Assembly (NCBI GenBank): GCA_913060555.1
Contig: CAJXRS010000002.1
Span: 1-64,000 of the forward strand
Origin: an uncultured Gammaproteobacteria bacterium
GTDB taxonomy: Bacteria > Pseudomonadota > Gammaproteobacteria > Pseudomonadales > Porticoccaceae
Reading direction: 5' to 3'
Length of the DNA: 64,000 bases
The notes under the pieces are model-generated. The model was given only the letters and a program-made list of their open reading frames with translations. It was not told the DNA's origin and ran no database searches. Each line of letters opens with the position of its first letter. Positions within the stretch are counted from its first letter, which is position 1. Shown here in pieces: positions 25,911 to 53,245 of the stretch. The translations under genes and the position numbers were made by a program.

Positions 25911-27233
25911 TCATGCACCGAACACATCCAGAATCGATCGCCGCAGCCGCTCGATGAACAGGTCGACCTCGCGCTCGGCGATGACGAGCGGCGGCGACAT
26001 CACCAGGTTGTCGCCCACCGCGCGGCACAGCAGGCCGTTTTCCCAGCAGCGGTTGTGCACTGGCACGCCAACGCCGCCCGGAAATTTGGCTGGATCGGGC
26101 GCCAGGGTGACGGCGCCCAGCAGGCCATAGTTGCGGATGTCGATCACCTGCGGCAGGTCCCGCAGGCTGTGCAGGGCGTCTTCCCAGTAGCGGCCGATGG
26201 GCCCGGCGGCACGGGTCAGCAGGCCCTCGCGCTCGTAGATCTCGAAAGCCGCGAGCCCGGCGGCCGCCGCCACCGGTGCGCCGGCATAGGTATTGCCGTG
26301 AAACAGCTCGGGGCCGCTGCCCGGTGCCGCCTCGAAGATCGTTTCCTGGATATCGCGGCGCACGAATACACCGCCCATGGGCACGCTGCCACCGTTGATC
26401 GCCTTGGCGGTGGTCATCAGGTCCGGGGTCACTTCCAGGCGGGTGGCGGCGAAGGCTGCGCCGGTGCGGCCGAAGCCGGTGACCACTTCGTCGAAGATCA
26501 GCAGGATGTCGTGCTGGGTACAGAGCTCGCGCAGCCGTTGCAGATAACCCACTGGTGGCGGCACCATGCCGCCGGCGCCGACGATGGGCTCGACGATCAC
26601 CGCGCAGAGGTTCTCCGCGCCGCGCAGGGCGATGATCTTCTCCAGCGGATTGAGCTGGTCCGCGCCACGCTCGGGCAGGCCGCGGCTGAAGGCGTTGGCG
26701 GAAATGTCGAGTAGGTCGGGCAGGAAGTCGACATTGTCGAGGACGGGGAAGCCCTTGCGGTTGTTGGGAATCCCTTGCAGCGAGGTGCCGCCGACATTGA
26801 CGCCGTGATAGCCTCGTTCGCGGGACACGAAGCGGGTCTTGGTGCCCTTGCCGCGGGCCCGCTGCCAGGCGTAGGCGATCTTCATCGCGGTCTCCACGGA
26901 CTCGGACCCGGAGTTGGTGAAGAAGATGCGGTCCAGTCCGGGGGGCGCGTATTCGGCCAGTTTGGCCGCGAACTCGAAGGTCACCGGTGCGCCGAACTGA
27001 AAAGGCGGCGCAAAATCGAGTTCCAGCAGTTGGTGCCGGACGGCGTCGGCCACCTCGCGGCGGCCGTGGCCCAGGTTCGCACACCAGAGTCCGGCGGTGA
27101 TGTCGAGGATCTCCCGGCCGTCGGGCGTGTACAGGAAGCAGCCCTCGCCGCGGGTGATCAGCCGGGGATTGCCGCGAAACGCCCGCACGTTGGTGAAGGG
27201 CTGCCACCAGTGGTCGAGAGTGAGTTGGCTCAT
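25911..27233 (-). CDS. Class III PLP-dependent aminotransferase (omega-aminotransferase type)
   Basis: FFTNSGSESVETAMKIAYAWQ, LLIFDEVVTGFGRTG, TTAKAINGGSVPMGGV. Confidence 0.92.
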   Translation of the reverse strand: MSQLTLDHWWQPFTNVRAFRGNPRLITRGEGCFLYTPDGREILDITAGLWCANLGHGRREVADAVRHQLLELDFAPPFQFGAPVTFEFAAKLAEYAPPGLDRIFFTNSGSESVETAMKIAYAWQRARGKGTKTRFVSRERGYHGVNVGGTSLQGIPNNRKGFPVLDNVDFLPDLLDISANAFSRGLPERGADQLNPLEKIIALRGAENLCAVIVEPIVGAGGMVPPPVGYLQRLRELCTQHDILLIFDEVVTGFGRTGAAFAATRLEVTPDLMTTAKAINGGSVPMGGVFVRRDIQETIFEAAPGSGPELFHGNTYAGAPVAAAAGLAAFEIYEREGLLTRAAGPIGRYWEDALHSLRDLPQVIDIRNYGLLGAVTLAPDPAKFPGGVGVPVHNRCWENGLLCRAVGDNLVMSPPLVIAEREVDLFIERLRRSILDVFGA

Positions 27234-27403: not shown

Positions 27404-29185
27404 ATGAGTGATCGTCCCGAGCAGGCCCCCGGAAACCAGGTCCTCCCGGAATACGGCGATCTCGTCATCGCCTATCTGGAGCAGCTCGGCGTCGAATACG
27501 TGTTCGGTATTCCCGGCGGCGCCATCGAGCCTTTCTACAATGCCCTGGCGCGCAGTGAGCGGCGCGGCGGTCCGCGGGCGATCGTCGCCCGCCACGAGAC
27601 CGGCGCGGCCTTCATGGCCGACGGCTATTCCCGCAACACCGGCAAGCTGGGCGTGTGCTGCGCCACCACCGGCCCCGGCGCGACCAACCTGATCACCGGG
27701 GTCGCCTCGGCCTACGAAAATCATATCCCCATGTTGGTGATCACCGCGCAGACTCCGCTGTCCACCTTTGGCCGGGGCGCCATGCAGGAATCCTCCTGTA
27801 CCGGGGTCAACACCGTCGAGCTGTTCCACTACTGCACCCGTTACAGCACATTGGTGTCCCACATCGAGCAATTCGAGCACAAGCTGATCACCGCCATCAT
27901 GACGGCGTTCTCCTCGCCCATGGGGCCGGTGCATATCAGTGTGCCCATGGACATCATGCGACAGCCTTGGAATCTGGAGAAGCCGAGCTTTTCATTGCCA
28001 CAGTTACTGCGCAGGCCGGCGCTGCACGACGATCAGGCTATGCAGCAACTTTATGAAGAACTGCTCGCTGCCGAGCAACCGGTTTTTCTGATTGGGGACG
28101 AAGCCCGGGAAGCTATAGGCACTACTTTGAGCGTGGCCGCGTGCCTGCAGGCGAAGGTAATAGTGACGCCGCACGGCAAGGGCTTGGTAAGCCCGTACCA
28201 CCCGCTGTTTCGTGGTGTTATCAGCTTTGCCGGGCATCGCGAAGCAAACCGATTGCTATCGGACGAGACTGTCGACCGGATTTTCATCATCGGCGCCAAC
28301 ATGGGGGAGTGGGCCAGTAATGGCTGGGATCCCCGGCTTTTCGGTCATCGGATCATCCATATCGAATCTACCGAGGCGAATCTGGCGCGAACCCCCATGG
28401 CCGCACTGCATGTCAGAGGGCGACTGCAGACCATCATGGAGAGAACGCTCGAGAGACTAGAGAGAGAAAGAGTAAACAAGGCTCCCGAGGGAGCGATAAA
28501 ATCTCCGCAGCTGGTCAGAGAGTCGAAGCGCCGCTTCTCTCTCGACGATGAAGAGAAATATTGTTCCGACGAGGTTCCCATTAAGCCGCAGCGCTTGATG
28601 CGCGAGCTTCCCCGAGTATTGCCAGCGAATACCTATTATCTGGCGGACTCAGGTGCCAGCTTGTCTTGGGCGATCCACTATCTTCACCCCTATGACCGCC
28701 GCATGGCCGGCCAAAGAGACGGCAAGCGCGGGTTGTTCCACGCTGTGACGGAGTTCGCGTCCATGGGCTGGGCCATTGGCAGTGCGGTGGGGGCCGCCTT
28801 GGCGCGGCCCGGAGATCCAGTGGCCTGCATCATTGGTGATGGCAGTATGCTGATGAGCGGTCAGGAGATTACCGTGGCCATTCAGGAAAAGCTTCCGGTG
28901 ATTTTCGTCGTGCTCAATGACAGTGCATATGGAATGGTAAAGCATGGCCAGCGTATGACCGGAGCCGAGTCTATAGGTACCGATCTTCCGCAAACGAATT
29001 TTGTGGCCTTCGCGAAATCCATGGGAGCGCAAAGCTACCTGATCGAATCTCCGGAAGATCTGCTGGCATTGGATGGCAAGGCGATAGCGGCAACACCTGG
29101 GCCTACGCTGCTGGACGTGCGGATTGATGTGGACGAGGCACCGCCGATCGGTTTCCGCACCAGCTTTCTGAAGCCCGTAGAATGA
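27404..29185 (+). CDS. Thiamine diphosphate-binding enzyme, acetolactate-synthase-like
   Basis: GIPGGAIEPFYNAL, ARHETGAAFMADGYSRNTGKLGVCCATTGPGATNLITGVASA, ThDP motif GDGSMLMSGQEITVAIQEKLPVIFVVLND. Confidence 0.9.
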   Translation: MSDRPEQAPGNQVLPEYGDLVIAYLEQLGVEYVFGIPGGAIEPFYNALARSERRGGPRAIVARHETGAAFMADGYSRNTGKLGVCCATTGPGATNLITGVASAYENHIPMLVITAQTPLSTFGRGAMQESSCTGVNTVELFHYCTRYSTLVSHIEQFEHKLITAIMTAFSSPMGPVHISVPMDIMRQPWNLEKPSFSLPQLLRRPALHDDQAMQQLYEELLAAEQPVFLIGDEAREAIGTTLSVAACLQAKVIVTPHGKGLVSPYHPLFRGVISFAGHREANRLLSDETVDRIFIIGANMGEWASNGWDPRLFGHRIIHIESTEANLARTPMAALHVRGRLQTIMERTLERLERERVNKAPEGAIKSPQLVRESKRRFSLDDEEKYCSDEVPIKPQRLMRELPRVLPANTYYLADSGASLSWAIHYLHPYDRRMAGQRDGKRGLFHAVTEFASMGWAIGSAVGAALARPGDPVACIIGDGSMLMSGQEITVAIQEKLPVIFVVLNDSAYGMVKHGQRMTGAESIGTDLPQTNFVAFAKSMGAQSYLIESPEDLLALDGKAIAATPGPTLLDVRIDVDEAPPIGFRTSFLKPVE

Positions 29186-29198
29186 TTGTGAGCCGACG

Positions 29199-30014
29199 GT
29201 GAAACCATCCAAGGAAAGTATCGTTACCAAAATCTGGAATGAAGAGCCAGAGCCGGACAACCCCTTCGCCGCCCGCGCCTGTTATTGCTCCGGATTCGAT
29301 GTCTACGGCGATCTACTGGGCAAGATCTCCTGGATTCAATATCTCTGGCTGTTGATTCGGTTGGAGCCCCCGGAGCCCGCCCAGGCCCGGATGCTGGAGG
29401 CGCTGGCTGTGGGCCTGGCCAATCCCGGACCCCGGGAACCGAGCGTGCATGCTGCCATGTGCGCCGGCGTGGGTGGCTCGACGCGGGCCTCGGCGTTGAT
29501 CGCTGCGCTCTCGGTGGGGGCCGGCAACCTGGGCGGGGCGCGCGATGTCTTCGCGGCAATGGGCAACTGGGCCGATTGCGGTACCGATCTGGCGGCCTGG
29601 CGCGAGCGCATCCGCAATCCGCCGGTAGACGAGCGTGACGATGTCTGGCCGTCCTTCGAACACCCCCCGGGTTTCGACCCCAATGGCGCCGGCTGCCCCA
29701 CGCCGGTGCGGCAATTGTTGAACCACCTCACGGTGTTGGACCCCGGCCCGGTGCTACCCTGGCTTCAGCAGAATCGTGAAGTGCTGCAACATGAGGCCGA
29801 TGCACCCTTGGCATTTTCCGGCGTCGCGGCTGCGGCCCTCCATGCCCTGGGCTTCACCCCGGAGCAGGGCGAGATGCTGTTTCTGCTGCTGCGCTTGCCC
29901 GGGGCGGCGGCGCACGCTCTCGAGCAGAAAATGAACTGGGCGAAGTTCCCCTTTTTCGGCAACGGCCTGAGGCTCACGGATGACCCCGGCCCATCGAGTC
30001 CCGATCATGAGTGA
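29199..30014 (+). CDS. Divergent citrate synthase/citryl-CoA lyase-like protein A
   Basis: DLLGKISWIQYLWLLI...MLEALAVGLANPGPREPSVHAAMCAGVGGSTRASALIAALSVGAGNLGGARDVFAAM resembles the citrate-synthase fold pattern. Confidence 0.6.
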   Translation: MKPSKESIVTKIWNEEPEPDNPFAARACYCSGFDVYGDLLGKISWIQYLWLLIRLEPPEPAQARMLEALAVGLANPGPREPSVHAAMCAGVGGSTRASALIAALSVGAGNLGGARDVFAAMGNWADCGTDLAAWRERIRNPPVDERDDVWPSFEHPPGFDPNGAGCPTPVRQLLNHLTVLDPGPVLPWLQQNREVLQHEADAPLAFSGVAAAALHALGFTPEQGEMLFLLLRLPGAAAHALEQKMNWAKFPFFGNGLRLTDDPGPSSPDHE

Positions 30015-30822
30015 AGACAAGGGCCCGGAAATGCTGGCGCGTTGCGAGGACAACTGGGTCACCGCCATGGGCGCTTGGTTTCCGGAGGGTCGCGTTGTGC
30101 TGCGCGGCAAGGATGTGCTCAATGACCTCGGCCATCGGCCCTGGATGGAGTATTTCATCTACGGGATCAACGGCCAGGAGGATTCCAGATTCGCACGCTT
30201 TGTCGAGGGCGTCTGGGCGCTGACCACCAGCTATCCCGATCCCCGCCTTTGGAACAACCGGGTGGCTGCCCTGGCGGGAACCACCAGATCGACCGGCGTG
30301 TTGGCCTTGGCCGCCGGGATTGCGGTGTCCGAGGCGTCCTTGTACGGACTGCGGCCGATCAGAGGGGCTCTGGATTTTCTGTATCGAGCCGATCGCAAGC
30401 TCGCCGATGGCGCGATCCTGGAAGACGTGGTTTGGGAGGAGCTGCGCACCTATCGCAATGTGTTCGGCTATGGCCGTCCCATTACCTCTGCCGACGAACG
30501 GGTCGCCCCTTTGATGAAGTTCGCCGATTCCTTGGGAATGGGGAAAGGGAAATTCATCCAACTGGCATTTGAGGTCGAAAAAATCTTAAAACAATCCCGG
30601 CTGAAGTATCAGATGAATATCGCCGGCGCCGTTGCCGGGTTGGTCGCGGACGAAGGGCGCACGCCGGACGACCACTACTACATGGCGGCACTCTCATTCG
30701 TGGCCGGGATGATGCCTTGCTATATCGATAGCCTTGGCAAACCGGGAGGCAGCTTATTCCCGCTCAGGGTTACCAGAATCGACTACAAGGGCGCGCCCCC
30801 AAGGCGCTGGGGAGCGGCATGA
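30007..30822 (+). CDS. Divergent citrate synthase/citryl-CoA lyase-like protein B (alternative start 29980)
   Basis: GRVVLRGKDVLNDLGHRPWMEYFIYGI...RVAALAGTTRSTGVLALAAGIAVSEASLYGLRPIRGALDFL; ATG overlaps upstream stop (ATGAGTGA). Confidence 0.6.
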   Translation: MSEDKGPEMLARCEDNWVTAMGAWFPEGRVVLRGKDVLNDLGHRPWMEYFIYGINGQEDSRFARFVEGVWALTTSYPDPRLWNNRVAALAGTTRSTGVLALAAGIAVSEASLYGLRPIRGALDFLYRADRKLADGAILEDVVWEELRTYRNVFGYGRPITSADERVAPLMKFADSLGMGKGKFIQLAFEVEKILKQSRLKYQMNIAGAVAGLVADEGRTPDDHYYMAALSFVAGMMPCYIDSLGKPGGSLFPLRVTRIDYKGAPPRRWGAA

Positions 30823-32966
30823 AAAATAGCCATAAGACGCTGCGCATAAGGGCGCTGTTGCTGTTGTTGCCAGGGATTGCCTTGGGCCAGCCCACCCCCG
30901 AGGAGGAATTGGCCGAACTCTATGGGGGCGAAGAGTTTGTCCGTATTGCCACCGGTGTCGCCCAGCCGGTATCCAAGGCGCCGGCGGTGGCCTCCATCAT
31001 TACCGCAGAAGAAATTCGCGCTATGGGCGCCACCGATATCGACGAGGTGTTGGAGACGGTACCCGGCCTCCATGTGGCGCGCAGTGCATTGGGCTACAAC
31101 CCCATCTATGTATTTCGCGGCATGTACTCGGATGTTAATCCTCAAGTATTGATGCTGATCAACGGTATTCCCCTCACCAACTTGTACGTGGGAGACCGGA
31201 ATGTCGCTTGGGGCGGAATGCCCGTGGAAGCCATCTCGCGGATCGAGGTAGTGCGCGGGCCGGGTTCGGCGGTCTATGGCGCCGATGCCTTTGCCGGGGT
31301 GATCAATATCATCACCAAGTCGCCGGAAGAGATCGAAGGGCTGTCTCTTGGCACCCGCGCCGGCAGCTTCGACACCCAGACGGGCTGGCTGCAGTACGGT
31401 GGCAGCCGCGGCGAACTGAGCTATGGCGCGGTGATCGAGGCTCACCGCACCGATGGTCAGCGCGAGCGGGTGGCTGCCGATGGGCAAAGCTTTCTGGATG
31501 CGGTTTCCGGTACCAGCGCTTCTCTCACGCCCGGCCCGGTAAATCTCCACCGGGAGAACCTGGATGCAAGGCTGGAGCTGGGTTATCGCAATCTCACTTT
31601 GCGCGGCGGCGCGCAAGTCAGAAACGATGGTGGTATCGGGCTTGGGGTAGCTCAGGTGCTGGACCCCCAGGGTGCGGTCGGGAGTGATCGCTTCAACGCC
31701 GACCTGACCTACGACAATCCCGCGCTGACCGACAGTCTTGGTCTGAAGCTGCAGGGCAGCACCCTGTTCACCAGCCAGGAGGTGGACGAAGACCTTCGCC
31801 TCTTCCCCCCCGGCTCTCGCGGGCCGTTTTTCACACCATTGGGGGCGCCGATCTTTCCGCCTTTTCCGGATGGCATCATCGGCAATCCGGAAGTCTACGA
31901 ACGCCATTACCGGCTCAATGCCACCACGCTGTACCAAGGGATTCGGGATCACAAGATTTCCCTGGGCACTGGCTATCACTATGGTGAGGTCTACAGGACC
32001 GAGGAGGAGAAAAACTTCGGTATCGACCCGGCCAGCGGGCTGCCCATCCTCCCGGGCAGCCCGCTGGTCGATGTCTCCGACACTGCGCTGGTGTTCCTAC
32101 CCGAGGGCCGGCGGGAAAACACCTATGTCTATGTGCAGGACATCTGGCATTTCGCCCGCGATTGGCAGCTGACTGCCGGGGTCCGCTACGATCACTTCTC
32201 TGATTTCGGCGATACCACCAATCCCCGGCTGGCGCTGGTCTGGTCGGCGCGCCGCAATCTGACTCTCAAGGCGCTCTATGGCGAGGCCTTCCGGGCACCA
32301 TCCTTCTCCGAGACCCGGGTGCAGTCGAACCCGGTCTCCCTGGGCAATCCCATGCTGAAGCCGGAGCAACTGGAAAGCTATGAACTGGCGGTCAACTACC
32401 AGCCCACCTTTGACCTGACTCTGGACTTCAATGTCTTCCATTATCAATGGGATGATGTCATTCAATTCGTCGCGGACCCCGGCGCCGGCACCCGTACTGC
32501 CCAGAATGCCGGCGAACAGACGGGTTACGGGGCCGAATTTTCGCTGTCCTGGGATGTCACCGAGGCGTTGTCTCTGACCGGCAACCTGGCGCTGCAGAAA
32601 TCCCAGGATCAGTTGACCGGCGAGGATGCCGGCAATGCTCCAGAGCATCAAAGTTATGTCCGGGCCGACTGGGATTTGCTGCCCGGTTGGAGCCTGGATG
32701 TGCAGGCCAACTGGGTGGCATCGCGCAATCGGGTGTTCGGCGACCCGCGCAGTGATATCGGAGACTATGTGATCACCGACCTGACCCTGCGCAATCGCCA
32801 GTGGGCGCCCAGGTTCGAGGTCGCCTTGCTGGTCAAGAACCTGTTCGACGAAAATGCGCGTGAGCCCAGTCTCGACGGGGACCCGCTACCCTCGATCCCC
32901 AGGGATTTGCCCTTGGCGGGCAGGGCCGCCTTCCTGGAAGTGCGCTATACGCCCACCGGCCACTGA
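30819..32966 (+). CDS. TonB-dependent receptor
   Basis: Signal peptide, plug domain (AVASIITAEEIRAMGATDIDEVLETVPGLHVARS; RIEVVRGPGSAVYGADAFAGVINIITK), beta-barrel C-terminus; ATGA overlap with upstream gene. Confidence 0.93.
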   Translation: MKNSHKTLRIRALLLLLPGIALGQPTPEEELAELYGGEEFVRIATGVAQPVSKAPAVASIITAEEIRAMGATDIDEVLETVPGLHVARSALGYNPIYVFRGMYSDVNPQVLMLINGIPLTNLYVGDRNVAWGGMPVEAISRIEVVRGPGSAVYGADAFAGVINIITKSPEEIEGLSLGTRAGSFDTQTGWLQYGGSRGELSYGAVIEAHRTDGQRERVAADGQSFLDAVSGTSASLTPGPVNLHRENLDARLELGYRNLTLRGGAQVRNDGGIGLGVAQVLDPQGAVGSDRFNADLTYDNPALTDSLGLKLQGSTLFTSQEVDEDLRLFPPGSRGPFFTPLGAPIFPPFPDGIIGNPEVYERHYRLNATTLYQGIRDHKISLGTGYHYGEVYRTEEEKNFGIDPASGLPILPGSPLVDVSDTALVFLPEGRRENTYVYVQDIWHFARDWQLTAGVRYDHFSDFGDTTNPRLALVWSARRNLTLKALYGEAFRAPSFSETRVQSNPVSLGNPMLKPEQLESYELAVNYQPTFDLTLDFNVFHYQWDDVIQFVADPGAGTRTAQNAGEQTGYGAEFSLSWDVTEALSLTGNLALQKSQDQLTGEDAGNAPEHQSYVRADWDLLPGWSLDVQANWVASRNRVFGDPRSDIGDYVITDLTLRNRQWAPRFEVALLVKNLFDENAREPSLDGDPLPSIPRDLPLAGRAAFLEVRYTPTGH

Positions 32967-33002: not shown

Positions 33003-33902
33003 GTGAAATGTCTGACACGCTTTGCCCTGATATCGATCGCGCTGCTGGCTGCCGGCCAGACGCTGGCCCAACAGGTGGTGATCCTTTACCCCATGGTGCG
33101 CGAGCCCTATGCGCGGATCTACCGGGATACCCTCGCTGGTATCGAGCAGACCTATAAGGGAGACAGCCGGAGCCTGCCGGTACTGCCCGGGCACGAACTC
33201 GCCCCGGGACTGCTCACCAATGATGGCACCGGTGTCGCGGTTGCCCTGGGTAACGGCGCGGCGCGCGCCCTGAGCGAACTGAATCCCCTGATTCCGGTGA
33301 TCACCGCGGCGACCGAGGATATCTCCTTCCGTATACATCATCGGTTGGAATACTACCCGGACCCGCCCATGTTGCTGGAGCAACTGCGCCGCTTTCAGCC
33401 CGGCGTCGAGCGCATAAAGTTGGTTGCGGCACCGGAGATCGGCGAATATGTCGACCTCGTGCGCGAAGCAATGACCGCTGCCGGGATCGGCTTGGACATA
33501 TGCAGCGCCGAAGATCTCAAGACCGCCGCCGGCTGTTATCGGCAACTACTGGATCAGGCGTCTTCCTCGGATGCGATCTGGCTACTGCAGGGTGGCAGGT
33601 TGCTGGAACCGGCATTGCTGTCGTACATTCTCGATGTCGCCTGGCGGCGGCAACTCCCGGTATTCTCTTCCAATCCCTCTCACGCCGGGCGCGGTGCGCT
33701 GTTCGCACTCTACCCGGATAACGAAGCGGTCGGACGCCAGATCGGATCGCTGATCAACGAGTGTCTGCGCCAATGCGACGGCGAATCCCCGCAGGTCAGC
33801 TATCTGCGGGAGATGAAGGTGGTATTGAACGAGCGCACCAGCAGACGCCTGACATTGGATATCACGCCCGAGGCACGACAGGGCGTGGACCTCATCCTCT
33901 GA
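33003..33902 (+). CDS. Periplasmic ABC-type substrate-binding-like protein
   Basis: Signal peptide ALLAAGQTLAQ; periplasmic-binding-like fold pattern; no permease/ATPase gene alongside. Confidence 0.7.
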   Translation: MKCLTRFALISIALLAAGQTLAQQVVILYPMVREPYARIYRDTLAGIEQTYKGDSRSLPVLPGHELAPGLLTNDGTGVAVALGNGAARALSELNPLIPVITAATEDISFRIHHRLEYYPDPPMLLEQLRRFQPGVERIKLVAAPEIGEYVDLVREAMTAAGIGLDICSAEDLKTAAGCYRQLLDQASSSDAIWLLQGGRLLEPALLSYILDVAWRRQLPVFSSNPSHAGRGALFALYPDNEAVGRQIGSLINECLRQCDGESPQVSYLREMKVVLNERTSRRLTLDITPEARQGVDLIL

Positions 33903-33913
33903 GACCGCCTGCC

Positions 33914-36900
33914 GTGTTACGTCTTCGCAATCTTCGCTTCCGGCAGCAGCTGGTGCTGCTGTTCGTGATCGGCGCGTTGCTGGTCACCCTGATCGGTTCG
34001 ATTGCGGCGAGTCGGTTTGCCAGCAACCTGGTGGAGCAGGAGATGCGTCGCCAAGGGCTGAGCGTTACCCGCACCCTGGGCCAGAACGCCAAGCTGGCCA
34101 TGCTCTACGAGAGTACCGAGGCGGCCGCGGACGCCGTGCAATCGGTGGCCGGCTTTCCGGACATCCAGGTACTGGAAATTCGTGCTGCCTCCGGAACCCT
34201 GCTCTACCGGGACGAAACCGGCCCGGTGGTCCCCGCGCCGGGGCCACTCGCGCCCGAGGGATATCTGGAGATGGATACAGCGGACAGCTGGCTGTTCCGC
34301 CTCGATGTCGTCGCCGAGCGGGCGGAGGACTGGAACCCGAGTCTGGAGAAGGGTCTGGCTCCCCAGGAGCCCGAGCGCCTCGGCCAGGTCACGGTAGCGC
34401 TCCACAAGCGCACCCAGCATGAACTCGCGCAGCGGATTCTGCTGGGCATCCTGGGCACATCCAGTCTCGCCGCCGGGTTGCTGTTGCTGTTTTTGATCCA
34501 GATATCGCGGCGCATCACTCGTCCCCTGGAAAGTCTCGCCCGCGTCATGGGACAGGCGGAACATGGCGACCTGGCGGTGCGGGCCGATCTCAAGGGTGGC
34601 CAGGCCGATATCCTGGAGATGCAGCACGCGTTCAATTCCATGATGAACGAGCTCGAGAGCCGTGATCAGGAATTACAGCGCGCGCGGGATGCAGCCGTGG
34701 AATCGGCGCGCCTCAAAGGCGAGTTTGCGGCCAACGTGACCCATGAGTTGCGTACGCCGATGAACGGCGTGCTCGGCTTGCTCGATCTGTTGCGTGACAC
34801 CAGGCTCGGCGCTCGTCAGGTGGAATACCTGGATCTGGCGCGCAAGTCTGCCGAGGGTCTATTGAGTCTGATCGACAACATCCTCGATTTTTCCAAGAAC
34901 GACAGCGGGGTGATCCGTATCACCACCGACGAGGTCATCTTCCGCGATCTGCTCGAGGAAATCATCAACCTGATCGGCACCCAGGCATTGTCGAAGGGAG
35001 TCGACATCGGTTATTTCATGGCCCCGGAAGTGCCTGCGGTACTCAGTCTGGATGCCGCCAAGCTCAAGCAGGTGTTGATCAATCTGCTGGGCAATGCCAT
35101 CAAGTTCACCGAGGTGGGCGAGGTTTTTCTACGCGTCTCTCTGTCAGCTGATTCGGCAGCAAGGCTCAGGTTCGAGATTTCCGACACAGGGATCGGGATC
35201 GGCCCAAACCAGCGCAAGCGGATTTTCGAGCCCTTCACCCAGGCCGACGCCTCCTCCAGCAAGCGCTATCAGGGGACCGGGCTCGGCCTGACCATCTGTC
35301 GGCAACTGGTCGATATCATGGGTGGGACCATAGGCCTGGATACCGAAGTCGGGCGTGGTAGTTGCTTTTGGTTCGAGGTGCCCTTTGCGGCCCCTGCGCA
35401 GGCGCGCGCCCTGCAGACACCACGGGTCGAGCCGGCTTCCCTCCCGGTGCGGGCGGTCTGTGTGCTCGGCAGTGATCAGGGTTATGCCTTTATTGCCGAC
35501 ACCCTGCGCCGTGAGCAGCTGGGTTGTGTTCGTGCCCTGGACCTGCGATCCGTGCGCATTGCGCTGGAGCGGATTCAGGCCGGCGGCGAGCCGCCCTTGG
35601 CCATTGTTGACGACACCATCTATTTCAGTCATCGCGACGAATTCGACGATCTTGCGGCACTGGGCCGGGCGCGCGTCTGTGTGCTGCTGAACCCGTTCAG
35701 CAAACTGGAGATCGCCGCCGGCAAGGTGGTGCGAACCCTGGAAAAGCCCGTGTTGTTCGCGCCCCTGGCGAGGTTTGCGAGCGATCTGTCCGCGGCCGAT
35801 GCGCGCCCCCCGGAACCCGAGGCCAGCGTGCGGGAACCGGTCTTCACCGCCGAGCTGCGGGTACTGCTGGTCGAAGACAACGCAGTCAACCAGCAGGTCG
35901 CCTTGGAAATGCTCTCGCGGCTCGGTGTCATGGCCGATCTCGCCGAGCACGGCGAGCAGGCGCTGGCCATGGCGACCCGGGCCGAGTACGACCTCATCAT
36001 GATGGATTGCAACATGCCGGTGATGGATGGCTATGAGGCGACCCGGCGCATTCGCGCGCTGGAAGTCGATCGCCAGACGCCGATCATCGCCATGACCGCA
36101 ACTACCGGTGAGGAAGAGCGGCAGCGGGCGCTGGAGGCCGGGTTCAGCGATTTCCTCTACAAGCCCGTCCGCCTGGAGGCGCTTAGCGTCATGGTTTCGC
36201 GCTGGGCGCAGGCGACCGCGCCAGACGTCGATGCCTCGCCTCCGCAGGTCCGGGAGCAGGCAGCTTACAGTCCCGCCGCCATGCAGGAGTTGCACGACAG
36301 CGTCGGCGACGTCACTTACCGGATGGTGGAGTCCTTCCTGGAGGATACCCCCGTCTACCTGGATTCGCTGAAATCCGCATTGTTGGAAAACGACGCCCGT
36401 CGCGTCTACGAGATCGCCCATGCATTGAAGGGCAGCGCCAGCACCTTCGGTGCTGCACCCTTTCTGGAGGTGGTCGCCGCGCTGGAGAACAAGGGCAAGG
36501 CGGAAGATCTGGCCGGCGGCGAGGCCTTGGCCAGCGCCTGTGGCGAGCGCTTCGCCGACCTGCGCAAGGAGCTCGAGCGCTATCAGTTCGCCGAGACCGG
36601 CCACCAGGACGGTTCGCCACGCAAACACCAGTTGTTGATCGCTGACGACGACCGCACGCTGAGGCTGGCGCTGCGCGGTACTTTCGAGGGCGAAGAGTTT
36701 GAGATTCTGGAGGCGGCCGACGGTGCCCAGGCGATCGCGCTCTGCGAACGGGCCATGCCCGACATCATTCTCATTGACGCCATGATGCCCGAGATCAACG
36801 GCTTCGACGCCTGCCAGCGCATTCGCCAGCTGCCCGGCGGCGGCGATTTACCGATCCTGGTAATCACCTCGCTGGACGACGAGGACGCCATCGTGCGCGC

Positions 36901-38329
36901 CTTTCGTTGCGGTGCCACGGACTACCTCACCAAACCCATTCATTTCACCGTGCTCAAGGAGCGGGTCGGGCGGCTGATCAAGGCCAACCGGGCCGAGGTG
37001 CGCGCCCGCACCCTGGCGTTCGCGGACTCGCTTACCGGCCTGCCCAACCGCGCCAGGCTCAACCAGGAACTGGGCTTCACGCTCAATCAGGCAAGCCTCA
37101 ACGATGAGCGCGTAGCAGTACTGTTTCTCGATCTCGACAACTTCAAGAACGTCAACGACAGCCTCGGACACCAGGTTGGGGACCTCCTGCTCAAGGCTGT
37201 GGCCGACCGCCTGCGCCGCTGCCTGAGGCGCAGCGACTTCATTGCCCGGCTGGGCGGGGACGAGTTCACCGTGATCCTGCGGCGCGTCGAAAATGACGAG
37301 ATCGTTTCCAACATCGCCCGCAACATTCTCGAAGCCCTGAATGAGCCCTTCGTCTTCATCCAGAAGCGCATGCTGGTATCGACCAGCATCGGCATCTCGA
37401 TCTTCCCGGATCATGGCGAGGATGTCAGCTCCCTGCTCAAGCATGCCGATCTGGCCATGTTCAAGGCCAAGGAAACCAAGAACCGGTACTGTTTCTATAC
37501 CCATGGCATGGAAGACGCGGTGTCCCGCAAGCTGCAGCTCCAGCAGGAGCTGCGCCACGCGCTCGACAACGATCATTTCGTGCTCTACCTGCAGCCCCAA
37601 TACGACCTACGCGAGCGCCGGGCGGTAGCCGCCGAAGCCCTGGTCCGCTGGCGCCGCGAGGACGGCAAGATACTGACTGCGGGCAATTTCATACCGCTCG
37701 CCGAAGAGACTGGGTTGATCACCGAGCTGACCGATCTGGTGCTGGAGAAAGCCTGTGTGCAGATCCGGGCCTGGCTGGATCGGGGTTATCCGGTGAAGCT
37801 GGCGGTCAATCTCTCGGCGCGGGATTTCGCCATCCCCGGGAGGTTGTTCGCGCGGGTCGCGGACCTCACCCGCAAGTACGGCGTACCCACGCGGCTGCTG
37901 GAACTGGAAATCACCGAGAGCATGCTCATGGAGGATCCGGAGCGCAGCCGTGAGGAACTGCTGGAATTGAAAAACGCCGGCTTCAGCCTGTCCATCGATG
38001 ATTTCGGCAGCGGCTATTCGTCCTTGTTCTACCTCAAGAACCTGCCGGTTGACGTGCTCAAGATCGACCGCGCCTTCGTCAAGGATCTGGAGGAAACCAG
38101 CAATCGCCGCGATATTCCGGTGATCACCGGAATCATCGCGCTGGCGCGCAGCCTAGGGCTGCACACGGTTGCCGAAGGCGTGGAGACCGAACCCCAGAAG
38201 AAAGTGATCGAGTCGCTGGGCTGTGAGCTGATTCAGGGCTACCTGATCAGCGAGCCACTGCCCGCGCTTGAGTTCGAGCGGCGTTTCCTGGCCGATTTCG
38301 CCACCGATTCTGCCAAGGTGCGGAGTTGA
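33914..38329 (+). CDS. Hybrid sensor histidine kinase: TM-HAMP-HisKA-HATPase-REC-Hpt-REC-GGDEF-EAL
   Basis: GTG start 33914; THELRTPMNG H-box; REC (MMDCNMPVMDGYEATRR); Hpt (AHALKGSASTFGA); REC (ILIDAMMPEINGF); RRSDFIARLGGDEF; AAEALVRWRR. Confidence 0.93.
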   Translation: MLRLRNLRFRQQLVLLFVIGALLVTLIGSIAASRFASNLVEQEMRRQGLSVTRTLGQNAKLAMLYESTEAAADAVQSVAGFPDIQVLEIRAASGTLLYRDETGPVVPAPGPLAPEGYLEMDTADSWLFRLDVVAERAEDWNPSLEKGLAPQEPERLGQVTVALHKRTQHELAQRILLGILGTSSLAAGLLLLFLIQISRRITRPLESLARVMGQAEHGDLAVRADLKGGQADILEMQHAFNSMMNELESRDQELQRARDAAVESARLKGEFAANVTHELRTPMNGVLGLLDLLRDTRLGARQVEYLDLARKSAEGLLSLIDNILDFSKNDSGVIRITTDEVIFRDLLEEIINLIGTQALSKGVDIGYFMAPEVPAVLSLDAAKLKQVLINLLGNAIKFTEVGEVFLRVSLSADSAARLRFEISDTGIGIGPNQRKRIFEPFTQADASSSKRYQGTGLGLTICRQLVDIMGGTIGLDTEVGRGSCFWFEVPFAAPAQARALQTPRVEPASLPVRAVCVLGSDQGYAFIADTLRREQLGCVRALDLRSVRIALERIQAGGEPPLAIVDDTIYFSHRDEFDDLAALGRARVCVLLNPFSKLEIAAGKVVRTLEKPVLFAPLARFASDLSAADARPPEPEASVREPVFTAELRVLLVEDNAVNQQVALEMLSRLGVMADLAEHGEQALAMATRAEYDLIMMDCNMPVMDGYEATRRIRALEVDRQTPIIAMTATTGEEERQRALEAGFSDFLYKPVRLEALSVMVSRWAQATAPDVDASPPQVREQAAYSPAAMQELHDSVGDVTYRMVESFLEDTPVYLDSLKSALLENDARRVYEIAHALKGSASTFGAAPFLEVVAALENKGKAEDLAGGEALASACGERFADLRKELERYQFAETGHQDGSPRKHQLLIADDDRTLRLALRGTFEGEEFEILEAADGAQAIALCERAMPDIILIDAMMPEINGFDACQRIRQLPGGGDLPILVITSLDDEDAIVRAFRCGATDYLTKPIHFTVLKERVGRLIKANRAEVRARTLAFADSLTGLPNRARLNQELGFTLNQASLNDERVAVLFLDLDNFKNVNDSLGHQVGDLLLKAVADRLRRCLRRSDFIARLGGDEFTVILRRVENDEIVSNIARNILEALNEPFVFIQKRMLVSTSIGISIFPDHGEDVSSLLKHADLAMFKAKETKNRYCFYTHGMEDAVSRKLQLQQELRHALDNDHFVLYLQPQYDLRERRAVAAEALVRWRREDGKILTAGNFIPLAEETGLITELTDLVLEKACVQIRAWLDRGYPVKLAVNLSARDFAIPGRLFARVADLTRKYGVPTRLLELEITESMLMEDPERSREELLELKNAGFSLSIDDFGSGYSSLFYLKNLPVDVLKIDRAFVKDLEETSNRRDIPVITGIIALARSLGLHTVAEGVETEPQKKVIESLGCELIQGYLISEPLPALEFERRFLADFATDSAKVRS

Positions 38330-43600: not shown

Positions 43601-44547
43601 CGGGCTTCCGCCATGAGAGGGAGAGCAACATCATCCCGGTCGGCACGCTGCTGGCCGCCCGCCGCGGGCCGATGGCGGTGATTGAAACGCCGTGCCAGCG
43701 CTTGCAGCGAGCCGATGTAATCGGCGCCGCCACGGGCGATCACCGCCTCCGGCATGGCGCGGGCGACGCAGTCCGAGGGGTCCTGCACCCATACCTCCCC
43801 GCCCTGTTCGCGGATGTGCTGGCTGCCCAGTACGCCGTCATCCCCGAGACCGCCGAATACGATCATCCCGGCGCGCTCGCGATAGGTCAGTGCCAGGTTT
43901 TCCGCGAGCTGATCGATGTTGGGCCGATAGGGCTCCGGCCAGGCTCCGGAGAGAACGCGGAGTTCCGCTCCGGGACGCAGGCGCAATCGCCGTTCCGGGT
44001 GCACCAGGGCCAGAGACCCCTCCAGCAGGAAATCCGTTGCCGTGGCGATCCCTGCCCGCCAGTCGCTGTCGCGGCTGAGCCAGCGTTGCAACTGGTCCAG
44101 ATGGCCGGGGTCGATGTGCTGTGCGTACAGCAGGGCCAGTCCCGCCGCTCTGGGGACGGCGGAGAGGAATTGTGCCACGGCCGCCGGGCCTCCCGTCGAG
44201 GCGGCCAGCAGCCATACGCGTTCGGCGCGTGCCGCACTGGTCAGGTCTCCCAGTGGCCGGCGGGCTGCGGTGATGCGTTGCCGCAGACTTTGCTTCCAGG
44301 ATGCGAAGGCGGTGCGCGATCGGGCCAGGAAATCGGCCTCGATGTGCAGGTGGAAACACGCGGCGACCTCGCGTGCCGAGTCTTCGCGGCGCTCGATCTC
44401 GATCAGCAGGTCGATGTCGCGCCAGTCCGCCGCCGCCATGTCCTGGGGCCGGCTGGTGTCGAACAGCACCAGGTGGCCGAGTTCCTCCAGCGCGCGGCGC
44501 AGTGGCGCCCGGTCCCAGGGGCCGTCAGAGACCATGGCCACTTTCAC
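43597..44547 (-). CDS. chpB: CheB-type protein-glutamate methylesterase (ChpB)
   Basis: VWLLAASTGGPAAVAQFLSAVP, AQHIDPGHLDQL, VFGGLGDDGVLGSQHIREQGGEVWVQDPSDCVARAMPEAVI. Confidence 0.88.
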   Translation of the reverse strand: MKVAMVSDGPWDRAPLRRALEELGHLVLFDTSRPQDMAAADWRDIDLLIEIERREDSAREVAACFHLHIEADFLARSRTAFASWKQSLRQRITAARRPLGDLTSAARAERVWLLAASTGGPAAVAQFLSAVPRAAGLALLYAQHIDPGHLDQLQRWLSRDSDWRAGIATATDFLLEGSLALVHPERRLRLRPGAELRVLSGAWPEPYRPNIDQLAENLALTYRERAGMIVFGGLGDDGVLGSQHIREQGGEVWVQDPSDCVARAMPEAVIARGGADYIGSLQALARRFNHRHRPAAGGQQRADRDDVALPLMAEAR

Positions 44548-47500
44548 GCTGCGAGGCTCCGGTCGGTGGCAGGCAGGTCTCGACCACTGCCAGCAGGTGT
44601 TCTTCCTGATAGGGTTTGCCGAGGTAGTGATCGACCCCCAGTTCCAGGGCCTTGTTGCGGTGCTTGTCGCCGCTGCGTGAGGTAATCATGACGATGGGCA
44701 GGGCGCGCAGGCGTTCCGAGGCGCGCACCTGGCGGGTGACCTCGAAACCATCCATGCGCGGCATCTCCACATCGAGCAGCATCAGGTCCGGGGTGAGCTC
44801 CTGGAGCAGTTGCATCGCCTCGACGCCATCGCGTGCGCTGAGCACCTTGTAGCCCTGGCGTTCGAGCAGGCGTCCCGTGGCCTTGCGCATGGTCACCGAG
44901 TCGTCGACCACCAGTACCACGGATCCCGAGGCTTCGATCTGGGGTTCCGGCGGTGACAGGGTCGCGCTGCCGTAACGCAGTGCCGACCAGGGCGCGACCC
45001 GATCGGTGATCAGGGCATTGAGGTCGAGGATGGGGACCACCTGGCCGTCGCCCAGCACAGTGGCGCCGGAAAGCCCCCGAACCTTTGCGAACTGTGGCCC
45101 CAGGGATTTCACCACCACCTCCTGGCTGGGTTCGAGGGCGTCGACCAGCACCGCGGTCGGCTCCGAGGTGCCCTTGGTGAGCACCAGCGCCGATTTGCCG
45201 GCGGCCAGCTCGGCGCCCGGCTCGGTACTGCCGATGAGGTCGCCGAGCCGGCACACCGTGAAACGCTCGCCGCGATAGCTGAAGCCGGTTTCCGCCTGGG
45301 TGCGGAGCTGCTCCAGTTCGGCGGCGTCCAGGCGCACCACCCCAGAGACATTGTTGACCAGGGTACCGTAGCGCTCGCGGCTGGCCTTCATCAGCAGGGC
45401 GCGGTTGACGGATACCGTGAAGGGCAGGCGGAGTGTGAACTCCGTCCCTTCTCCCTCCCGGGAGCGGGGGCTGACGCTACCGCCCAGTTGGCGCAGTTCG
45501 CTGTCGACCACGTCCATGCCGATGCCGCGCCCGGAAATCTGACTGACGGCGCTCGAGGTCGAAAATCCCGGGTGAAAGATCAGTTGGGTGAGGTCCTGCT
45601 CGCCGATGGCCGCATCCGGGTTGAGCAGACCCAGGCTCTCGGCCTTGCTGCGGATGGCTGCGAGATCCAGGCCACAGCCGTCGTCGGCGAGCTGGATCAC
45701 CACGTCGCCGGCCTCCCGGGAGAAGGTGATGGATACCCTGCCGGTGTCGGGCTTGCCGGCGGCGCTGCGTCGCTCGGGCACTTCGATGCCGTGGTCGATG
45801 GCGTTGCGGATCAGGTGCTCCAGCGAGGGCACGATGCGCTCCAGCACCGAACGGTCCATTTCGCCTTCGATGTTGTGCAGTTCCAGTTCCACCGGTTTGC
45901 CCAGTTCGCTGGCGGTCTGGCGCACGATGCGCCGCAGGCGCGGCACGATCCGCGCAAAAGGCACCATTCGGGTCAGGGACAGATTTTCCTGCAGCTCGCG
46001 ATTGATGCGGGCCTGTTGGATCAGCAGCGCCTCGGTCTCCCGAGCCTTGGTGAGCAGGGTGTCCTGCAGGTCGTGAAGATCGGAGGCGGATTCCTCCAGC
46101 GCCCGCGACAGCTGCTGCAGGGTCGAATATCGATCCATCTCCAGAGGGTCGAACTGATCTTCCGTGCCCTCGGAGATCAGTTGCTCGCGCCGAAACTGGA
46201 TCTGCGCCTCGGTTTCCATGCCCAGGCGGCGTGCCTGATCGTGGAAACGGTCGACCGTGGTGTCCATTTCCTCCAACTGAAAGTGAAACTGCTGGAGCTG
46301 CTGTTCGATACGGCTGCGGCTGATGCTGGTCTCGTCGGCCAGATTGACCAGCTTGTCGAGAATCGACGCCGCGATCTTGACCACCTCGCGGGGTTGGCCC
46401 GCGCCGGTCAGGTCGCGTTCGGCTCCGCCCTCGCGCACCCTGCGCCGCCAGGGCGGCGTAACCCCGGAGCTGCGGAACAGTTCCCCGGCCGGCGGTGCCG
46501 ATGGTGGCGCTGCCGGCCGGCTCTCCGCGGCCGGTGTTGGCACTGCTCGAGGTGGCGGTTCCACGGGCAGGGACATGGGCGCTGGTTCGGTCTGCGGCGT
46601 CGCCTGCCGGTCGCCGCGGGCGATCTGCTCGCGCTGTTGCTCGATACGGTCGTAGAAGGCCAGACAGGTGTCGAAGAAGTGCGCGTCCGCGGCCCCAGGC
46701 GCGGTCGCCAGGACCAGGGTTTCGAATTCATGGCACAGGCTCCCCAGTGCCGAGCAACCCGCCATTCGCGCGCTGCCCTTGAGGGTATGCAGTGCCCGCT
46801 TGAGATCCTCGGCGCGCTCCACGGGGGTATCGCCGTCCCGCCAGCGGGTGATCGACTGCTCGATCTGTTCGGCCAGCTCCGCGGCTTCTTCGAGGAAGAT
46901 TGCCACCAGCTCGGCATCCGGGGCCTCGTCCAGGGTCTGGTCGGGGAGCGTCTCGCCGGTCTTCGGGTGGGGGGCTGGCGTCGCCGCCTGGCCCGCTGTG
47001 GGCCAGGGCTCATAATCCGCCCCCCGCGCCGCGGTATCCGGCGCGCGCTCCGGCTGCCAGCACAGGCGAAGACGGGCTTCGAGTTCGGCATCCAGCGGAG
47101 GTGGCGGCAGCGCGGCCGCCACGGCGTCGAGCATGGTGAGTAGTTGTTCGATGCCCCGGCTGAAGTCCGCTTGGTCTGTTGCGGCAGCCGGATCCGCGCC
47201 CAGGGCCCGGGCGCCGCTTTCGGCCAGTAGCCCGGCTGCGTCGGCCAGCGGTACCAACCCGCTTTCCGCAGCAGCGGTGGCCAGCCTGTCGAGTTCGCCG
47301 AGCAATGCCGGCAGCCGTTCGCGCCACTGGCCGGCGGGTGTCGCAGGCAGCCATTCGACCGCCGTCAGCAGAGCCTCCAGGCCTTCCGCCATCAGTGCCT
47401 GCAGAGGTTCGCGGGTGCGCGGGCCGGCGCGCAGCAGGCTGTCGCGCGCGTGCTCGAGCTGGAGGTTGCACGCATCCAGATCGACCTCCGTAGCTGTGCC

Positions 47501-49955: not shown

Positions 49956-50897
49956 TCATTTACCCTCCGGGTGGGGGCGCCGATAGGCGCTGATATCCGG
50001 ATGGCGCTCCCGCACCAGGAATCCCGGCTGCCAATCGCTGCATTCGCCCGGACCCACCACCAGCAGACCGCCGGGCTTCAGACGCCGGGCGAGAAAGTTC
50101 AGGGCCTGGCGGCGGCGCCAGCGGCGGAAGTAGACCAGCAGATGCTGGCAGAAAATGATGTCCGCGCCTTCGCGAAAGAAGCCGCACCGCTGGTCGAGCA
50201 GGTTGTCGGCAACAAAACCGACATGGCGCCGTACTTCCGCGGTGAGCCGGAAACGGCTCGTGGCGATCGATTCCATGAAGCGCGTCAGGCGTTGCCGATC
50301 TGCAGTGCCCAGCGCGTTGAGTGGATAGACTCCGGTGCGGGCCTCGCGCAGTGCGCTGACGCTGATGTCCGTACCGATCACGGCAAATTCCGGGGCATGG
50401 CCCGCAGTCTCGAACCCCGCCAGCGCATCCAGGGCCAGTGAGTAGGCCTCTTCGCCGGTAGAGCAGCCCAGACTCCAGATATCGAGCCTTTCTCCGCCCT
50501 GCCTGGCTGCTCGCCGAGCGACCTGTTCGCGGATGAAGTCGTGGGATTCGCGGTGACGGAAAAAGCGCGTCTCCTTGATCACCAGACGGTCGAGCAGGTG
50601 CCGCCATTCGCCGACGCCGGAAGCCGGCTGCAGGAGGTGCTGGAGATAGGTTTCGAAATCCAGGCCCAGTTCGCCGAGTCGCCGTTCCAGTTCGCGGCGC
50701 ACAAAGGGTTCCCGGTGGTCGTGGATGAGGATTCCGGTGCGCTGTTCGAAATGCTCGGCCCAGATCCGGTACTGGCCGTTCTCCAGGGCCGTCGCCGGCC
50801 GGGAGTCGGCGATGCCCAGGAGCCGCGGCTCGCTTGCGACCACCCCGGTGGTCGGGGTCGCCGGGGCGGCGGGCAAGGGCAGGTTACCGGCTTTCAT
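49956..50897 (-). CDS. pilK: CheR-type methyltransferase (PilK)
   Basis: [61 protein letters not shown]. Confidence 0.92.
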
Positions 50898-53245
50898 CGG
50901 CGCGGATAATCCTGATCGAGGTCGAATTCGTCGAGGTCGATTTCGGCCAGCTCGGTGCTCAGGCGCTGTGGGGGGGCGGCCTCGATTTCGGGATGATGGA
51001 CGTCGGGTTCCGCGGCGTCCGTGAACCAGTCGTCGACGGCGTCTTGCCGGTGATCCAGTCGCTCCATGAGGGCGCTGCTCTCGGCCAGCACCGCGGCGAT
51101 GTGCGGTTGAGGGGTGCCGCGTTCCCGGCGCGGGGTGTCGCCCGGAGCGGCTGCGGCAGTCTCTCGGTCGTGCGTTGCCGGGTGCTCCGCGGGCGCGCGT
51201 CCGGAGCGTTCGATCCTGTGCGTTTCCGGGAGCTTGAACCCGGATACGGATTGGCGCAGCTCGGTGGCCATGTCGGTGAGTTCGCCAATCGAGGCGGTGG
51301 TGTCATTGGCCTGCTCGAGGGTGCGCGAGGTGATCTCCTGAATCACGTTCATGGTGTTGGAGATGTGGCTCGCCGTGCCGGACTGGTGGCGCGCAGCGGT
51401 GGAGATGTCCTGAATCAGTTCGGCGAGGTCGGTGGAGACGGTTTCGATCTGTCCCAGTGCCACTCCGGCATCCTGGCTCAGCGCGGCGCCGGCGACCACT
51501 TCGGCGGTGGTCTGTTCCATGGACGCCACTGCGGCCCCGGTGTCGGCCTGGATCGCCGCCACCAGAGTGGCGACCTGCTTGGCGGCATTTGCCGAGCGCT
51601 CGGCCAGCCGCTGCACTTCGTCGGCGACCACCGCAAAGCCGCGCCCGGCATCGCCCGCCATGGAGGCCTGAATGGCGGCGTTCAGCGCCAGCACATTGGT
51701 TTGATCGGCGATATCACCGATCAGCGAGACGATGTCGCCGATTTCCTGGGAGCTTTCGCCGAGCCGCTTGATGCGCTTGGCGGTTTCCTGAATCTGCTCC
51801 CGGATGCGGTCCATGCCGGCGATGGTGTTCTGGACGACGCCGGCGCCCTGGGTGGCGATCGACACCGAGCGCGCCGCCACCGCAGCGGATTCGGTGGCGT
51901 TGGCCGATACCTGGTCGATGGTGATCGCCATCTCGCTGATGGCCGCCGAGGCGCTGGTGATCTCGCGGGCCTGGCTCTCTGCGGCGTCGGAGAGTTCGAG
52001 GGCGGTGGTGCGGGCACGGCTCGAGGCAGCGGAGACGTCGGCGGAGGTCTCCTCGATGCGCGAAACCAGCTCGCGCAGTTGCTGGATGGCGTAGTTGATG
52101 GCATCGGCAATGGCGCCGGTGAAATCCTGGGTGACCGTGGCTTCGGCGGTCAGGTCGCCCTCCGCGAGACCTTCTATCTCGTCGAGCAGGCGCAGGATCG
52201 CGTCCTGGTTGGCCTGGTTGGCCTCCGCGGTCTTGCGCAGCCGACGGCGGCTGTCGGCGACCAGGATGAACGCCAGGGCGGCGAGCCCGGCGACCAGCAG
52301 ACCGACGCCCAGGATCGCCAGGGCGGTGATGCTGAGACCGGGCAGGACCTGGGTCCCCGCACTGGTACCCAGGATGCGGATATGGTCGGCCAACGCCTTG
52401 GCCTGGGTGCTGAGCGCACTGTTGCCGGTGGCGATGGCCGCCGCCGCCGTTTGCCCCGTGATCACGTGTTCCGCCAGCTGTTCCAGGCGGTCGATCGCCT
52501 CCGCCAGCGCCCGATAGCGGTCTGCGGTCGCCGCCAGCTGGTAGCGAACGTCATTGTTACGGGCCGCGCTGAGATCGAGGTCGGGGGCTCCGTCGCGCAG
52601 CCCATCCAGGATCCGCGTGAAGCGTCGGTTGAATTCGCGGAGGGTCGAAAAAGCTGCCGCAGCCTGGGCCTCGGGGTCGAGCAGCGAAGTGACCGTGGCT
52701 TCGAGTTGTTCTGTCCAGGCCGCCAGTGAATAGGCAGCATCGATCTCGGTCGCCGAAGCCCGGGCATTGACCATGGTCTTGCCCAGGGCGGCGGTGGCTT
52801 CCTGCAGTGCGGGCAGAGTCTCCAGTGCCCGCGTCGCCGCCCGCTGAAAACCCTCGGCGGCTTGGCCGCGCACGGCTACCACGTCCACCTGGCGCTGCAC
52901 TTCTCCCCAGTCGGACGCGAAGGCCGAGACTCGCTCCGGCGGCAACTGGTCGGCGAGGTCCGCGTCGATACTGGCCCAGATTTTGGCCATGCTGTCGCGC
53001 TGTTCGAGCATGAGGGTGTGTGCTTGCGGATCCCCGAGTGCCGCCAGGGATGCGCTGCGTGACAGATCGCCGGCCAGGGTCTGGACGTCGGCGGCCATTT
53101 GTGTGCTGGCGCGGTCGTATTCGGCATCCCGATACAGGGTGTAGAAGATGTAACCCAGGCCGATGGTGAGCGCGATCAGCACCACCACCAGCAACAGCAC
53201 CGGTAGCCCCGTGGCGGCGCGCGCTTTGAGTGATTGAGGTTCCAT
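50894..53245 (-). CDS. pilJ: Methyl-accepting chemotaxis protein (PilJ)
   Basis: Two TM segments, HAMP, MCP signalling tip ([32 protein letters not shown]). Confidence 0.93.

Follow-up and report, generated by a model that had tools for sequence, protein, structure and literature searches.

A ThDP-dependent enzyme with paired citrate synthase homologues that lack the catalytic triad suggests an undescribed bacterial system for making and sensing a small molecule

What could two overlapping genes, each encoding a divergent homologue of citrate synthase that appears to lack the canonical catalytic histidines, contribute beside a ThDP-dependent enzyme? The question is raised by a stretch of 64,000 nucleotides (the window) from an uncultured gammaproteobacterium of the Porticoccaceae (contig CAJXRS010000002.1), for which the original prediction was an obligate heteromer with altered or no citrate-synthase chemistry. 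The two genes (A and B) belong to an operon of six that this prediction did not include: T, A, B, R, S and K follow one another on one strand with overlaps or gaps of less than 40 bases, T-A-B standing first. The features of the locus are:

25911-27233, minus strand: divergent class-III omega-aminotransferase, AptA-like (NCBIfam NF052567, above cut-off)
27404-29185, plus strand: T, ThDP-dependent enzyme of the acetolactate-synthase/ScyA group (Pfam TPP_enzyme N, M and C)
29199-30014, plus strand: A, citrate-synthase-fold protein (H274 replaced by L, H320 by a P/D region, D375 by S and H238 by P; equivalent of R401 kept)
29980-30822, plus strand: B, citrate-synthase-fold protein (H320 replaced by R in 117 of 117 homologues, D375 by A or S and H238 by P; R329 kept)
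30819-32966, plus strand: R, TonB-dependent outer-membrane receptor (Pfam Plug and TonB_dep_Rec b-barrel; signal peptide read by eye)
33003-33902, plus strand: S, PF04392-type periplasmic binding protein (Pfam; signal peptide read by eye)
33761-38329, plus strand: K, hybrid kinase and c-di-GMP enzyme, HAMP-HisKA-HATPase-REC-Hpt-REC-GGDEF-EAL (Pfam, NCBIfam)

R overlaps the stop codon of B by 4 bases (ATGA), and the true start of K is probably near the end of S, at about 33914, rather than at 33761. A and B are present as two overlapping open reading frames in different frames, and the motifs read by eye match the letters exactly (NPGPREPSVHAA and GNLGGARDV in A; YPDPRLWNNRVAA and RPIRGALDF in B). 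A likely alternative start for B is the in-frame ATG at position 30007 (ATGAGTGA, overlapping the stop codon of A). A chance overlap of reading frames was rejected because both A and B have homologues.

The alignment to PF00285 proposed as a check was of little help, as a single-sequence Pfam search left A below the cut-off (25.3 bits against 27) and gave no match for B, and both proteins are also sub-threshold in the NCBIfam citryl-CoA lyase family PRK06224 (at most 59 bits against cut-offs of 193-261). Family profiles, however, matched the citryl-CoA lyase of PDB entry 6hxp (E 1.3e-22 for A, built from 33 sequences; E 1.3e-14 for B, from 32 sequences), and the same entry was the best fold match, in a library of 350,542 PDB chains, of the AlphaFold single-chain models of A (pLDDT 87.0; E 2.4e-9) and B (pLDDT 85.4; E 3.5e-9), each with probability 1.00. 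Profile-profile comparison of A with B gave a probability of 99.1 and E 4.5e-19. In a maximum-likelihood tree of 84 rows (midpoint drawing), A forms one clade (100/98) and B another (100/100), and the two together are split from the citryl-CoA-lyase and citrate-synthase rows (98/96). Thus, by profile, fold and tree, A and B are members of the citrate synthase / citryl-CoA lyase superfamily, as had been predicted.

Comparison of residues with the His/His/Asp triad (H274, H320 and D375 in the numbering of pig citrate synthase), in an alignment that includes triad-bearing relatives, did not restore the triad, and the predicted absence of canonical catalytic residues therefore stands. None of the three residues is found in any of 117 homologues of B or in 112 of 122 homologues of A, and the other ten A proteins have exactly one, H274 in nine (in the context SHGGA or EHLGA; three from Collimonas and the rest from distant lineages) and H320 in one, the sequence context of these exceptions having been read directly, row by row. 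The histidines of the DHG and LHGGA motifs had been named as the catalytic pair; both are indeed lost, but the former is not a triad member, being, as we take it, the oxaloacetate-binding H238, and its position is occupied by Pro in 113 of 122 A proteins and all 117 B proteins. A mostly keeps R401 and has lost R329; B has Arg at the H320 position, keeps R329 and has acquired invariant or near-invariant polar residues (R89, W91, N93, R166, D172 and R174). Around H274 the placement of B in the alignment may be off by a few residues, and in the profile alignment to 6hxp it is Arg166 that pairs with the residue after H320; the B protein of the window contains no His in either stretch.

The full triad is present in 20 of 26 single citryl-CoA-lyase-like proteins. 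The other six (L056 of Martelella, L159, L161, L168, L179 and L181) form a separate subgroup that keeps H320 without H274 and D375, and the Martelella gene adjoins a CoA-transferase and a TRAP transporter. On the Azoarcus plasmid pAZKH (L055:4691-9471), a triad-bearing citryl-CoA lyase, a CoA-transferase, a ThDP enzyme and a shikimate dehydrogenase stand in a row, possibly a separate pathway of lyase and ThDP enzyme.

A and B thus share with citryl-CoA lyase and citrate synthase (PF00285, PRK06224, 6hxp) the fold, the length (about 270 amino acids, like 6hxp) and the positions of the motifs, but they lack the triad and H238, always occur as two paralogues, and are tied to a ThDP enzyme and usually also to a sensory module. 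They are probably annotated at present as citryl-CoA lyase, which, given the loss of the triad, is unlikely to be right. That they still perform citrate-synthase or citryl-CoA-lyase chemistry through a re-arranged active site is highly improbable: the fold is the correct one and H274 survives in those nine A proteins, but every A and B sequence retains at most one residue of the triad, and the same genome encodes two ordinary triad-bearing enzymes of the citrate synthase family.

The phylogeny and the residue losses would fit a single ancient duplication, after which the triad was lost. Decay into pseudogenes was rejected, because the frames of A and B are open in nearly all relatives, selection on both genes is purifying (dN/dS about 0.1-0.14 for finite values of dS, which is near saturation) and each of two deep clades has the losses fixed.

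The pairing of A with B, and of both with T, is strict. Among 398 other Pseudomonadota genomes, drawn evenly, strong matches to A, B and T occur in exactly the same nine; the cassette is present in roughly 2% of the sampled Pseudomonadota species. Among 145 genomes searched as relatives, the source genome included, 51 have a match to A, of which 50 are true A proteins when one triad-bearing match (G102) is left out, and T is present in all 50. A relative of A is encoded by at least 275 stretches of the named genomes scanned; the best 80 of these belong mostly to Gammaproteobacteria, Betaproteobacteria and Desulfuromonadia, and include single MAGs labelled Planctomycetota and Flavobacteriales. 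Cultured genera with the cassette include Hahella, Collimonas, Marinobacter, Aquabacterium and Pelotalea. When loci were made non-redundant at 70% identity of A, 49 remained, of which 47 have A and B paired and the remainder lie at contig ends. The obligate pair of the original prediction is borne out as a genetic pairing, from which we infer a heteromer, the models made here being of single chains only. In citrate synthase and citryl-CoA lyase, which are dimers, the partner subunit completes the active site.

The partner, T, was predicted to be an apparently intact ThDP enzyme, and its sequence agrees: alignment with the acetolactate synthase of the same genome indicates that the catalytic Glu and the GDG..N motif are kept. 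The nearest solved relatives of T are BbmA (8x3x; the best PDB match, 1.4e-92) and CsmA (8x3z), from which the reaction of T is not transferable, the open-access literature searched containing no paper on either. Like acetolactate synthase, ScyA and BbmA/CsmA, T has all three TPP domains, the catalytic Glu and the ThDP-binding motif, but the acceptor Arg of acetolactate synthase (RFDDR), which presumably binds the 2-oxo-acid acceptor, is absent, with Trp, Ile and others instead, and T passes no curated acetolactate-synthase cut-off (300.8 bits against 509 for the best model). An ordinary acetolactate synthase was rejected as the identity of T, since a separate, clearer homologue is encoded elsewhere in the genome (L189). 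The companions of T are A and B, whereas that of acetolactate synthase is the regulatory subunit IlvN/IlvH. The ThDP enzyme of Geobacter, Pelotalea and the group of G160 is of a different subtype, about 35% identical to T, even though A of Geobacter and Pelotalea is 57-59% identical to that of the window; thus, the ThDP partner can be swapped. In five loci (L106, L114, L136, L186 and L187), A-B accompanies such a different ThDP subtype, one closer to acetolactate synthase (about 35% identical to T), and the receptor is divergent, which suggests that these cassettes may make a different product.

IlvN and IlvH regulate acetolactate synthase, and the strongest rival explanation is that A and B are likewise a non-catalytic heterodimer, regulatory or scaffolding, that senses an acyl-CoA or a carboxylate and controls T, all of the chemistry being done by T. 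That nearly all members lack the whole triad, that co-occurrence with T is strict and that A-B stands directly 3' of T in most loci is what such a subunit would lead one to expect. We nevertheless consider it rather unlikely, for two reasons. The polar residues gained by B (R89, W91, N93, R166, D172 and R174) fit an active or ligand site, although a pure ligand-binding site would look alike. Secondly, in one complete genome of the same family (G024), which has neither A nor B but intact T, receptor, PF04392 protein and kinase, the interval that A-B would occupy contains a single gene for a FabH-like KAS III of 316 amino acids (L220:10551-11501; G024:C1:1922553-1923500), in which Cys and His motifs are readable, so that the slot is filled by an apparent enzyme. 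This protein is above the cut-off for Pfam ACP_syn_III and sub-threshold for KAS III in NCBIfam; its PDB match to FabH is 2.3e-26, with PQS enzymes further down the list. FabH-like enzymes load acyl groups from acyl-CoA, and their substitution in place suggests that A-B carries out an acyl-CoA step, although the swap is seen in one genome: a search of 399 genomes of the phylum and 102 of the family for further cases returned only FabH homologues of 28-32% identity, or G024 itself. As to the predicted alternatives, altered or no citrate-synthase chemistry, this single swap suggests an altered acyl-CoA role rather than none.

The operon as a whole bears on what such a step might serve. The layout T-A-B-R-S-K recurs in Gammaproteobacteria, Betaproteobacteria and Desulfuromonadia and is the order common to most relatives. 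The 49 non-redundant loci contain T in 47, B in 47, a receptor in 39, a PF04392 or YfiR protein in 34 and a histidine kinase in 34, whereas 20 loci of single citryl-CoA-lyase-like genes contain no receptor, no PF04392 or YfiR protein, and a kinase and a ThDP enzyme in five each (Fisher p 3e-10 for the receptor and 4e-8 for S/YfiR, values that are guides only, as loci share ancestry). The aminotransferase upstream of T was rejected as a core member, being found in 3 of the 49 loci only. The sensor varies by lineage while T-A-B is constant: YfiR (PF13689) replaces PF04392 in five loci from Hahella, Marinobacter, Oleiphilaceae and Thiotrichaceae (four after removal of near-duplicates), and in G206 the neighbour is a giant Ser/Thr Pkinase-AAA-GAF-HisKA_3 protein followed by a LuxR-type regulator (Pfam), with an ORF matched by size and position in G225 and G257. 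No recognised sensor is within reach of T-A-B in L115 (a planctomycete) and L184, and no recognised R is nearby in L183-L185 and L188. In 8 of 49 loci a gene for an SDR dehydrogenase separates T from A or flanks the cassette, and sulfotransferase, glycosyltransferase-like and AMP-ligase genes are found near other cassettes; in two genomes of one genus (L045:7335-8597 and L046:9600-10946), a sulfotransferase-type gene lies between the receptor and A-B. The source genome has a second operon of receptor, PF04392-like protein and hybrid histidine kinase (L198:6912-12943), in which no GGDEF-EAL was seen in the kinase, without T-A-B; the sensory half is thus evidently re-usable and T-A-B an addition to it. 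In G048 (L221:8340-12957) a deletion has fused the first part of T with the later part of K, leaving a remnant without A, B, the receptor and S, so that here the cassette decayed as a block.

No PADLOC match to anti-phage defence was obtained for T, A or B. Elsewhere in the window, on the minus strand, a CheA-type protein with several Hpt domains, CheW and a receiver (44525-49954) and a methyl-accepting chemotaxis protein (50894-53245) are encoded near each other, probably as a pilus-type chemosensory cluster. A T2SSE ATPase is found at 57890-59047. The tRNA-Ala (CGC) called by ARAGORN at 47745-47839 (plus strand), opposite the CheA-like ORF and inside it, is probably a false positive.

A TonB receptor with a binding protein is typical of uptake, and citryl-CoA-lyase-like relatives adjoin CoA-transferases, transporters and IclR regulators in catabolic-looking loci; the operon might accordingly take up, sense and break down an outside nutrient, imported by R, sensed by S and K and degraded by T-A-B. 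This is unlikely, as the genes conserved with the cassette include no inner-membrane transporter, CoA-ligase or dehydrogenase, the sensor types vary and include cytosolic GAF kinases with a LuxR-type regulator, and replacement of A-B by a condensing enzyme fits synthesis better. Uptake of a bacterium's own product by TonB receptors is common, and R has sub-threshold matches to siderophore, heme and B12 receptor families; the product of T-A-B might then be a scavenging metabolite, for instance one that binds metal, which R brings back into the cell and whose return S and K report. That is improbable, since no exporter, Fur-type regulator or ABC importer was seen among the conserved genes (nor was an ABC permease or ATPase seen with S in the operon), and the four loci noted above have no recognised R nearby.

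The reading that we tentatively prefer, at somewhat short of an even chance, is that T-A-B uses an acyl-CoA to synthesise a small molecule, which the linked receptor and kinase sense, one cassette having a synthase half (T, A and B) and a sensing half (R, S and K). An acyl-CoA (or an acyl group and a 2-oxo acid) would be bound or activated by a heteromer of A and B, and T would either turn a 2-oxo acid into a ThDP-bound acyl anion or make the acceptor. The product, perhaps a small metabolite of alpha-hydroxyketone or beta-keto type, tailored in some lineages by the SDR, sulfotransferase or glycosyltransferase, would, itself or as a close relative, be taken up across the outer membrane via R and be read in the periplasm by S (or YfiR), leading to the phosphorelay and c-di-GMP output of K; in lineages with a cytosolic GAF kinase it would be read inside the cell. 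The cassette would then operate in the manner of CqsA/CqsS, PqsBC or LuxP/LuxQ, though with other enzymes. Support comes from the co-occurrence of A, B and T (the same 9 of 398 genomes and 50 of 50 relatives) together with their linkage to receptor and sensor, from the change of sensor type while T-A-B stays, from the want of any conserved inner-membrane transporter, from the missing acceptor-binding Arg of T, from the separate sensory operon elsewhere in the source genome, and from the G024 swap, the FabH and citrate synthase folds both handling acyl-CoA. Against it, no exporter is conserved with the cassette, some T-A-B sets have no recognised sensor, the FabH swap is in one genome, and small hydrophobic signals do not usually have a TonB-dependent receptor, which would better match a ligand that is larger or bound to metal. 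Gene neighbourhood demonstrates linkage of S to T-A-B, from which binding of the product by S is a prediction. If the ligand that the linked receptor and kinase recognise is indeed made by T-A-B, this would represent new signal-synthase chemistry feeding c-di-GMP, and a metabolic fold re-purposed as a paired pseudoenzyme. The open-access (PMC) literature searched contains no description of the cassette, which is not proof of absence. A broader proposal is that bacteria have a new class of signal synthase, of which T-A-B is the first example: a ThDP enzyme and a triad-less heterodimer of citrate-synthase fold with new acyl-CoA chemistry, accompanied in Proteobacteria and other taxa by an outer-membrane receptor, a periplasmic sensor and a kinase/c-di-GMP output of their own. 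This is possible but on balance doubtful.

Among known systems, YfiBNR also links a periplasmic regulator, of YfiR type, to control of an inner-membrane GGDEF protein (PMC3375315, PMC4887326). Five loci (four of the 49 non-redundant) have YfiR in place of S, but the locus of the window is not a YfiBNR system: it has PF04392 instead of YfiR, no YfiB was seen, a TonB receptor and biosynthetic genes are present instead, and K is a full hybrid kinase with EAL. With respect to quorum sensing, a candidate synthase is genetically linked to a sensor. LuxP/LuxQ, CqsA/CqsS and LqsA/LqsS are pairs of signal synthase and receptor with a hybrid histidine kinase, LuxP/LuxQ using a periplasmic binding protein; the cassette likewise pairs a candidate synthase with a hybrid histidine kinase, but its enzymes are others, it includes a TonB receptor, and its kinase is fused to GGDEF-EAL. 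PqsB-PqsC is a two-subunit acyl-CoA enzyme, one subunit of which is degenerate, that makes a signal. A-B differs from it in having an unrelated fold, in the loss of the ancestral triad from both subunits and in its linkage to a ThDP enzyme; the two meet in G024, where an enzyme of the FabH-like kind to which such signal-making enzymes belong takes the place of A-B.
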